Origin: Spirochaetaceae bacterium
GTDB lineage: Bacteria > Spirochaetota > Spirochaetia > Treponematales > Rectinemataceae
NCBI GenBank assembly: GCA_025355995.1
Contig: JANXYQ010000129.1
Span: 1 to 64,000 of the forward strand
Reading direction: 5' to 3'
Length of the DNA: 64,000 nucleotides
The stretch's first letter is position 1; each line of letters opens with the position of its first letter. Positions 40,341 to 48,730 of the stretch are shown here, one piece after another. A program made the translations under genes and the position numbers. The notes beneath the pieces were generated by a model that had not been told where the DNA came from, searched no databases, and saw only the letters and a program-made list of their open reading frames with translations.

Positions 40341-42905
40341 ATGAAAACAATTGAGATGTTCATGGCAGACGCGGGCTTTGCCCCCAACGATGCGCAACGT
40401 GATGCGATACTGCATGAAAGCGGCCCGCTCTACCTACCGGCTGGACCAGGTTCGGGCAAGACACGAGTCCTCCTCTGGCGAACCTTCAACCTAATCGTCT
40501 TCCAGGAAGTTAATCCCGCCTCCATTTTCCTGTCGACGTTCACACAGAAGGCAGCGAAGCAGCTCAAGGATGGCTTGCAGACCTTGTTGTCGTACGCGAG
40601 CGCGGATCGTTGCAGGCCCTACGAGATCAATGACATGTATGTGGGGACGATCCACTCGCTCTGCCAGAAGATGCTCCAGGATAGGCGCTTCTCGTCGTCG
40701 CGTGCTCGAGCTCGATCGCCTATCCTTATGGATGAGCTTTCGCAGTTCTTCTACCTGTATCAGGGCAAGGGTTATAAGGACGTAATTGAGCCTGAGCTGA
40801 AGAACGTTCCCAATCCGCAAATCCTTTGGACCGAGATCAACGCCTTCTTCGACAAAGAATCGGCATCGAAGTATGAAGCGATTACGCGCCTGATTACCTT
40901 TTTCAACCGGATCTCCGAGGAAGCGCCTGTTCTGGATGAATGGCGGGCAACATTCGCTCGGCTAGGACAGGAAAGCGGTCATCTGGGATACGTGAAGATG
41001 CTGAACCTGTACCAGGCGTACCGAACATCGCTTGCCGGCTCACCGAGGAGGAGCGACCTATCATCGCTGCAAGAGGAGACTCTCAATTACCTTCTGCGCT
41101 GCGATAGGTCGGGTGAAGTATTCAGTCATGTTATTATCGATGAATACCAGGACACGAACGCGGTACAAGAGCGCATTGTCTTCGCCTTGGCCAAGGGGAG
41201 CGGCAACCTCTGCGTTGTCGGCGATGACGATCAGGCACTCTATCGCTTCCGTGGCGCTACGGTAGAGAACTTCGTGCGATTCCCCGAGCGCTCGGAAAAG
41301 TTCCTGGGCAAAAAACCGAAAACGATACCGCTGATCGTGAACTATCGCTCTGAGAAGGATATCGTGACGCGTTATGCGCAATTTATCGAACAAATAGATT
41401 GGTCCACAGCGGAAGGGCAGTCAAGCTATCGAGTAAATAAAAACATAAGCGCCTTCAATTCGAACGAATACAAGAGCGTCTTCAGGAACGAAGGCGGGAG
41501 CTCGGATGAAACAGTACCCCGTGTGTTGGACTGCGTGAAAAGTCTTATAGAGGGCAAGGTTGTATCGGATCCGAATCAGATCGCCTTTCTTTTTTCGAGC
41601 CTGGGGACTGACTTGGTAAAGTCATTCAAGGCGGGGCTCGAGGCACGAGGTCTCAAAGTCTACGCGCCGCGGGCTGGGAGCTTTCTCGAGACGGACGAGG
41701 CTAAGGCTATCTTCGGTCTCTTCGCTCAGATCCTTGGAGAGTATAAACCGGGATTTAAGGGTCGCGAAATCGACAATTTTCAGGCTTGGCTTGTCGAATC
41801 CTTGGCCCTGGGCGAGCGAATAATGGCCGAAGATCCTTTGGCGCAGGCCTTCGTGTCACAAAAGCGAGACGAGATTAAGACGGCCAAGGGCGATCACGAG
41901 GCACTGATGGAGATCGTGGAGGCGGAGGCCTGGGAGCTGACCACGGAAGCCAGTGAATCGACGCTTAGGCGTCTGCTAGAGTCTACCAAACTTTCTACCG
42001 CTTGCCGAAAGACCCTATCCGGCAAGTCTATGAACGAGCTTCTCCGCAAGCGCAAGGCCGAGGGAAGGGCCCTTTCCATCCTCTATGTGGTATCGAGCGC
42101 CACAGCCCTGGATTGGACCCTCCTGGACCTCTTCTACCGCTTCTGCGGCTTCAAGGAAATCAAGGCAATCATCGAAGGAGCGAAAATCGATGAGGGGCCC
42201 TTGTATAACTTGGCACTCGTAGGCCGCTATGTGAATACCTATGCCGAGGAATTCAAGTCCATGGTGAGCGCTTTCGACTTGCGCGAGAAGCACCTGGTCA
42301 ATTCTTTCTTCGGTTCCTATCTCTTCACCCTGTTCCGCCGGGGCGAAAGCGAGTTCGAGAACGATGAGAATCCATTCCCGAAAGGGAGGATCCCATTCCT
42401 AACCATCCATCAATCCAAGGGGCTGGAATTCCCCGTAGTCGTACTCGGAGCGCTCAAGAAAATCGAGCGTCAGTCCACGATAGACAAGCTTCTTGAACCT
42501 GTGCTTGAGGATAAGGAGCCACTCGAGCTACAACCCCGCTTCGACGCGATGCGCAAGTTTTATGTGGCTATGAGCCGTGCCCAAAAACTACTAATCGTCC
42601 ATGACTGCTCCTACCAGGTCTCGAGCGAGTTCAAGAAATTCGTCGCGAGCCTTCCTGTCTTGAGCGAACTGGACATCGATAGCCTGAAGGCCAAGGAGAA
42701 ACACGAAGAGCCACTGCCTAAAGCCTACTCCTTCACTGGCGACTTTAATTTCTATCGCCAATGTCCCATGCAATACCAGATTTTTAAGAAGTTCGCCTTC
42801 CCGCCCTCTCGGTCCCAGACCATGGCCTTCGGATCCCTCGTGCATCAAACTCTCGACGACCTGCACGAGCACTTGATAGCCAGAAAGGTGTCCCATAATG
42901 GCTGA
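40341..42905 (+). CDS. UvrD/Rep-family (SF1A) helicase with N-terminal part of a PD-(D/E)XK nuclease domain
   Basis: A protein of 854 aa; ATG 40341. Helicase motifs: PAGPGSGKTR (Walker A, 33-42), TFTQKAAKQL (Ia), GTIHSLC, IIDEYQDTN (motif II, about 265), VVGDDDQALYRFRGA (III), NYRSEKD (IV), FLTIHQSKGLEFPVVVLGAL (V, about 688) and KFYVAMSRAQKLLIV (VI). After about residue 790 the chain changes to SFTGDFNFYRQCPMQYQIFK and FGSLVHQTLDDLHEHL, the opening segment of RecB/AddB-type nuclease domains including the first Fe-S cysteine, and then stops. The rest of the nuclease is in the next gene, which overlaps by eight bases. It should unwind DNA for the nuclease. Confidence 0.9.
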   Translation: MKTIEMFMADAGFAPNDAQRDAILHESGPLYLPAGPGSGKTRVLLWRTFNLIVFQEVNPASIFLSTFTQKAAKQLKDGLQTLLSYASADRCRPYEINDMYVGTIHSLCQKMLQDRRFSSSRARARSPILMDELSQFFYLYQGKGYKDVIEPELKNVPNPQILWTEINAFFDKESASKYEAITRLITFFNRISEEAPVLDEWRATFARLGQESGHLGYVKMLNLYQAYRTSLAGSPRRSDLSSLQEETLNYLLRCDRSGEVFSHVIIDEYQDTNAVQERIVFALAKGSGNLCVVGDDDQALYRFRGATVENFVRFPERSEKFLGKKPKTIPLIVNYRSEKDIVTRYAQFIEQIDWSTAEGQSSYRVNKNISAFNSNEYKSVFRNEGGSSDETVPRVLDCVKSLIEGKVVSDPNQIAFLFSSLGTDLVKSFKAGLEARGLKVYAPRAGSFLETDEAKAIFGLFAQILGEYKPGFKGREIDNFQAWLVESLALGERIMAEDPLAQAFVSQKRDEIKTAKGDHEALMEIVEAEAWELTTEASESTLRRLLESTKLSTACRKTLSGKSMNELLRKRKAEGRALSILYVVSSATALDWTLLDLFYRFCGFKEIKAIIEGAKIDEGPLYNLALVGRYVNTYAEEFKSMVSAFDLREKHLVNSFFGSYLFTLFRRGESEFENDENPFPKGRIPFLTIHQSKGLEFPVVVLGALKKIERQSTIDKLLEPVLEDKEPLELQPRFDAMRKFYVAMSRAQKLLIVHDCSYQVSSEFKKFVASLPVLSELDIDSLKAKEKHEEPLPKAYSFTGDFNFYRQCPMQYQIFKKFAFPPSRSQTMAFGSLVHQTLDDLHEHLIARKVSHNG

Positions 42906-48700: not shown

Positions 48701-48730
48701 ACGACGGTGGATTGGTGGAAGTCGGAATAA
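45716..48730 (+). CDS. res: type III restriction enzyme Res subunit (helicase-nuclease)
   Basis: A protein of 1004 aa; ATG 45716. SF2 helicase motifs: [18 protein letters not shown] (Walker A near 99), [13 protein letters not shown] (Ia), VLDEPQNM (motif II near 224), RYSATHRE (III), [20 protein letters not shown] and [18 protein letters not shown] (V, VI). The C-terminal endonuclease domain shows NYNPDWGII and LHLVRETKG (PD...ExK near 935 and 957). All expected elements are present, so it looks active. With Mod it forms a complex that translocates or slides on DNA and cuts when two unmethylated sites are in opposite orientation. It is the last gene of the operon. Confidence 0.93.
   Translation: [1004 protein letters not shown]

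Follow-up and report, generated by a model that had tools for sequence, protein, structure and literature searches.

Classical type III restriction-modification (RM) systems, such as EcoP15I and EcoP1I, consist of two genes, and type III enzymes are usually described as two-gene systems that cut DNA without degrading it. Members of this family, EcoP15I among them, mark asymmetric sites in the host through Mod, with methylation of one strand, and use Res to cleave DNA in which two inverted sites are unmarked. Res leaves DNA ends, and ends are what AddA/RecB-like motor-nucleases act on.

Fused UvrD-Cas4-like (pfam12705) proteins have type III Mod and Res genes as their commonest neighbourhood, and a role in defence, as an ancillary helicase-nuclease, has been predicted for them (Hudaiberdiev et al. 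2017, PMC5704561). Unfused pairs in the same study were mostly from Clostridiales, and their context was judged not indicative of defence. Some m4C type III systems, such as Eco86II and BspHIV, have an additional gene upstream of mod whose helicase-like product is described as SF2-like and lacking a nuclease motif; this gene is associated with mod-res in more than 500 genomes (PMC8259958). Bad is a bacterial DNA2-like helicase-nuclease that adjoins a type III-like Mod (PMC7430649). ZomB, a single polypeptide encoded on an ICE, carries a UvrD-like helicase domain and two Cas4-like nuclease domains and acts as an ATP-dependent nuclease in vitro; it was studied as a regulator, and no restriction system is mentioned (PMC9453066).

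The locus described here lies in the window, which is the whole 64,000-nucleotide stretch of a Spirochaetaceae contig that was analysed, and comprises genes for a UvrD-type helicase (H), a nuclease (N), Mod and Res. The preliminary description knew of no named system with exactly this set, but a 2017 study had already reported UvrD-Cas4 fusions encoded next to type III Mod and Res (PMC5704561). What appears to be new is the two-subunit form tied to one Res clade: no description of the split form, its Res clade or a functional test was found in the open-access papers searched. The locus shares with the reported family a UvrD SF1 helicase, a pfam12705 nuclease with D, DxK and Cys motifs, and a Mod-Res neighbourhood. 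However, those fusions are one polypeptide, whereas all 26 members of the clade studied here have two ORFs and are a sister form outside the fusion group, with a clade of their own whose Res is EcoP15I-like.

Other comparisons are similarly partial. Like EcoP15I and EcoP1I, the operon encodes Mod and Res with all diagnostic motifs, but two extra coupled genes lie upstream. As in the Eco86II/BspHIV class, a helicase gene directly precedes mod and res, although H is an SF1 UvrD-type protein with a nuclease domain, rather than an SF2-type protein without one, which places the operon outside that class. Bad resembles H-N in combining a helicase with an Fe-S RecB-family nuclease (the Fe-S cluster is putative here) beside a type III or type III-like Mod, but is a single DNA2-like protein, whereas H-N is UvrD-type and split. 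ZomB likewise joins a UvrD-type helicase to Cas4-like nuclease, yet does so in one polypeptide with two Cas4-like domains, unlike the two proteins beside type III RM genes seen here.

The four-gene operon and its island

The features of the locus are as follows.

39941-40015, plus strand: tRNA-Met (CAT), the integration site, detected by ARAGORN
39992-40112, plus strand: left copy of a direct repeat of 121 nt (96% identity between the two copies)
40341-42905, plus strand: H, a UvrD-type SF1 helicase of 854 aa (Pfam UvrD-helicase and UvrD_C)
42898-42905, plus strand: 8-nt stop/start overlap of H and N (ATGGCTGA)
42898-43761, plus strand: N, the remainder of the nuclease domain, 287 aa (Pfam PDDEXK_1)
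43767-45713, plus strand: Mod, a type III beta-class amino-methyltransferase of 648 aa (Pfam N6_N4_Mtase)
45716-48730, plus strand: Res, an EcoP15I-like restriction subunit of 1004 aa (Pfam ResIII and RE_endonuc)
48841-49089, plus strand: remnant of a transposase (rve_3 integrase core), after res and before the right repeat
49244-49364, plus strand: right copy of the 121-nt direct repeat

An ORF check agrees with the preliminary description that the operon (40341-48730) contains four plus-strand genes spaced by an 8-nt overlap, 5 nt and 2 nt; all four are open and intact. The tRNA-derived repeats said to bound it are also present: the 121-nt repeat consists of the final 24 nt of tRNA-Met and downstream terminator-like DNA. 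GC content is ~0.53 within the island (0.38 in mod) versus 0.60 to 0.70 outside it. No integrase gene of the island's own was found between the repeats, where only the transposase remnant is present, and such a gene appears either to have been lost or never to have been there. Another genome of the same genus shares the DUF554 gene and tRNA-Met with this contig; there, a tyrosine-recombinase gene comes immediately afterwards, and nothing in the genome matches N. The tRNA-Met site is therefore an integration hotspot. A third, partial copy of the tRNA-Met 3' end (34 nt, 89%) occurs ~10 kb downstream, at 59363-59396, and is perhaps an older island boundary.

The Mod-Res pair has the make-up of a complete type III RM system, as had been proposed, with Pfam, PADLOC and PDB matches and all key motifs. 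Mod is beta class, with DPPY (position 118) preceding FxGxG (FFAGSG, 420), and matches PADLOC MTase_III (E 3e-172) and the structures 6k0w and EcoP15I Mod (4zcf_A), the type III homology expected of such a subunit. Res has an SF2 ATPase and a C-terminal PD-(D/E)XK domain; its Walker motifs (METGTGKT at 99, DEPQ at 224) and PD..ExK nuclease (PD at 937, ExK at 957-959) are intact. It matches PADLOC REase_III and, over residues 94-987, EcoP15I Res (4zcf_C, E 6e-46).

H and N as parts of one helicase-nuclease

N covers only positions 83-247 of the 247 in the PDDEXK_1 profile (pfam12705), that is, the last two thirds. The first part of the PD-(D/E)XK domain is the C-terminus of H, which contains Cys808 and His835, and N contributes D90, D102, K104, Q121 and Cys225/228/234. 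H thus carries the catalytic His together with one of the putative Fe-S Cys, and N carries the D..DxK residues and three Cys. Along fused relatives, the end of the H profile and the start of the N profile are ~2-14 residues apart, so that the pair tiles the fused protein.

Because a PDB sequence search with the N profile gave chance matches only, we searched with predicted folds. In AlphaFold models, each of a single chain, H has a pLDDT of 82.6 and N of 79.3. With Foldseek, N best matches the AddA nuclease (4ceh_A, E 2.9e-5, prob 1.0), followed by AdnA, ACE1 and Cas4, and H matches UvrD, PcrA, AddA, AdnB and RecB. According to these models, AddAB, AdnAB and RecBCD provide the best structural matches of N and some of the best of H, but their nuclease domains are not divided between two proteins. 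No gene for a second helicase-like subunit, as in those complexes, was found among the ORFs and Pfam matches of the island. Among other candidates, Gabija is rejected, as GajB models match the helicase core only and the neighbours are a nuclease, Mod and Res, rather than GajA (ATPase and TOPRIM). Neither a CRISPR Cas4, whose models match N weakly (E 1e-6), nor an orphan RecB is supported.

That H and N represent one RecB/AddA/Cas4-like helicase-nuclease, split within its nuclease domain, is well supported by these sequence features. The two proteins would then form a heterodimer with an Fe-S cluster, and the 8-nt overlap of their genes makes translational coupling likely. If the active site is divided in this way, it supplies exact residues for mutants, and the composite enzyme is directly testable.

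Association with type III RM genes

The preliminary description viewed H and N as a pair of separate enzymes forming one unit with Mod and Res. The idea of a unit is favoured by co-occurrence of the helicase and nuclease with mod and res across phyla, in searches from either side, but the separate enzymes are two pieces of one, each of which holds part of the active site and some of the Cys ligands.

Relatives were collected from a scan of 84,980 species genomes and a scan of the window's own phylum. Counting near-duplicates once, and only split loci with ~1 kb or more of sequence beyond N or with Mod seen, Mod is present in 15 of 24 loci (the window, L023, L032, L034-L036, L038-L042, L044, L048, L050 and L051). 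The count becomes 17 of 26 with two same-family genomes found with N alone; these gave further clear matches when the 30 nearest genomes were searched with N, and both have full H-N-Mod-Res operons. Res follows Mod wherever the contig continues, except in L042, where Mod-Res is upstream of the pair. Mod does not adjoin the pair in nine split loci (L030, L031, L033, L037, L043, L045, L049, L053 and L069), and H itself is broken or truncated in L031, L053 and L069. The pairs at L033, L037 and L043 show no visible damage, which means that H-N can occur with no Mod-Res close by.

Additional genes accompany some loci. A GIY-YIG gene (L042, 5158-5904) lies between mod and res, as do a DNA-binding ORF6N/RhuM-like gene and a Fic gene in the two same-family genomes (L382, 6911-8394; L383, 5688-7177). 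A GmrSD gene separates N from mod in L044 (13463-15460); like the GIY-YIG gene of L042, it is a further nuclease gene nested within the operon. BREX-like genes (BrxC-like and Eco57I-type methylase) are beside the broken split pair of L031 (755-8423).

Fused relatives on plasmids have a methyltransferase and a Res-like gene downstream in all eight loci read, and the same is true of many of those examined on provirus contigs. Most fused relatives examined adjoin a different Res, in which ResIII is combined with a TnsA-like C-terminus. A fused relative with Mod and a Res-like protein is present on an E. coli chromosome, and blastn matched the fused helicase in 3 of 5426 E. coli genomes.

Searches from the Res side give a corresponding picture. 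In the window's own phylum, 25 of 296 genomes have a Res match; among the loci read, 20 have Res, alone or with Mod, but lack the pair, which was found only in the window and one other genome (G191). Among 80 Res loci fetched from viral contigs, the pair-linked clade includes only the Res of L278, which occurs with an N; L279 is cut off, and the remaining loci have no pair, with a weak helicase match only in L345. The L278 locus (3869-13522, on a provirus-like contig) comprises a serine recombinase, an AAA ATPase gene, a chimeric N, and Mod and Res of the pair-linked clade, and has the appearance of two defence loci that have fused. It was rejected as a split pair, its N being a chimera with a foreign front half behind the AAA gene.

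In phylogenetic trees, the pair-bearing loci form one group for Res (SH-aLRT 100), which recurred in a second analysis, and one for Mod (SH-aLRT 99). Across 14 loci from different phyla, pairwise distances are correlated (Mantel) at 0.89 for H and Res, 0.79 for H and N and 0.65 for Mod and Res, with none of 2000 permutations as high; shared ancestry alone can yield such correlation, yet the loci cross phyla, as with L023, from the window's order, and Fibrobacter L051. It is well supported by sequence comparison that an EcoP15I-like Res clade travels with the H-N pair, and the link holds from either side.

We consider it somewhat probable that the operon is a type III RM system with a dedicated two-subunit helicase-nuclease that degrades Res-cut DNA. 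In this model, Mod would mark asymmetric sites in the host, and Res would cut DNA bearing unmarked inverted sites, as EcoP15I does. The coupled H and N genes would yield one AddA/RecB-like enzyme, to which H would contribute a 3'-5' SF1 motor, the active-site His and one Fe-S Cys, and N the D..DxK metal site and the remaining three Cys. H-N might then load on ends made by Res, and unwind and degrade the invading DNA, which could no longer be ligated or repaired. Since Res would leave ends and H-N would act on ends, the simplest reading is that a repairable cut is turned into destruction of the invader, although the loading on Res-made ends and the role in defence are what we infer. If true, a lineage-specific helicase-nuclease partner would explain irreversible cuts when phages block RecBCD or AddAB. 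The operon might even represent a distinct type III class, one that couples the site-specific cut made by Res to processive degradation by a dedicated helicase-nuclease with split active site and split Fe-S ligands; we put this at just short of an even chance.

H-N could instead be part of the restriction complex itself, recruited by Mod or Res to unmodified sites, where it unwinds and cuts as a motor-driven restriction enzyme. The same idea has been proposed for Bad (PMC7430649), and H distances track Res more closely than Mod distances do. Nonetheless, this arrangement is unlikely, as orphan H-N pairs exist and Res has all of its own motifs and a near-full-length match to EcoP15I Res, so that a second cutter at the site is unneeded.

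Rather less probable is a free-standing role for H-N in defence or DNA processing, as a module that accompanies several defence systems; its proximity to type III genes would then reflect island clustering. Pairs without Mod-Res occur at L033, L037, L043, L045 and L049, fused homologues are also found with Dcm or alone (PMC5704561), and some pairs are beside BREX or type I RM (HsdM) genes, so a type III system is not an obligatory partner. However, the pairing is clade-specific to one Res lineage, with tight gene order and congruent distances at the 14 loci across phyla, and among the nine pairs without Mod, at least five show visible damage or the loss of catalytic residues.

At a slightly lower level still we place a role in protecting the host, whereby H-N would process Res-made chromosomal breaks for recombinational repair, like AddAB or RecBCD. 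The folds of H and N are indeed closest to UvrD, AddA, AdnAB and RecB, but ~100 sampled Res loci of related type, outside the pair-linked clade, manage without H-N. Our preferred reading remains degradation of Res-cut DNA by H-N.

Conservation of the split and decay of the two halves

Nearer relatives have two ORFs in every case, and distant relatives mostly have one protein of ~945-985 aa. H ends just after one and the same helix, 'GSLVHxTIEDLH', at all 26 junctions, and two further same-family genomes agree. The junctions of these 26 loci take the form of 8-nt, 4-nt, 1-nt or zero overlap, and show all three frame relations, varied stop codons and clean start codons; the window's 8-nt overlap recurs in L024, L025 and L049, and many relatives have 4-nt ATGA-type overlaps. 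Split helicases occupy one side of a branch (SH-aLRT 100) in a helicase tree that is unrooted, its outgroup rows being long or wrong ORFs. This clade spans at least eight phyla: Spirochaetota, Fibrobacterota, Bacillota, Bacteroidota, Chloroflexota, Cyanobacteriota, Ignavibacteriota and Kryptoniota. On viral contigs, a single-protein search gave no matches, and the helicases that a profile search recovered there were, in the loci examined, fused and in no case split.

The varied overlaps and all three frame relations at one split point argue against a sequencing error or a single frameshift signal. A programmed frameshift between H and N is unlikely, as every frame relation is represented and there is no common overlap. 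That a frameshift has interrupted a single gene, whether as pseudogene or sequencing error, is refuted for practical purposes: fused homologues exist and loci L021, L031, L069 and L095 are truly broken, but the single split point persists throughout the clade with differing stops and overlaps and clean starts.

The two halves also decay together. We compared 20 aligned loci that have both halves, and the His on H is kept in 17, all of which (17/17) keep D, D, K and Q on N. The other three, Treponema L049, the Spirochaetaceae genome L046 and Clostridium L045, represent two lineages, and in each of them D/K/Q residues are missing from N as well. All 20 loci retain the four Cys. No Mod is beside the His-less pairs of L045 or L049, and L046 ends too early to tell. 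A nuclease whose active site is cut in two, and whose halves decay together, would be an unusual composite enzyme kept across phyla.

The split pairs of L024, L046, L049 and L045 have lost nuclease active-site residues in both halves and keep the Cys ligands, and it is possible that they have been repurposed as plain helicases. Three cyanobacterial loci (L067, L083 and L100, at about 9950-13220) have a helicase ORF of 740 aa ahead of another ORF of 339 aa, and may be a second, independent split.
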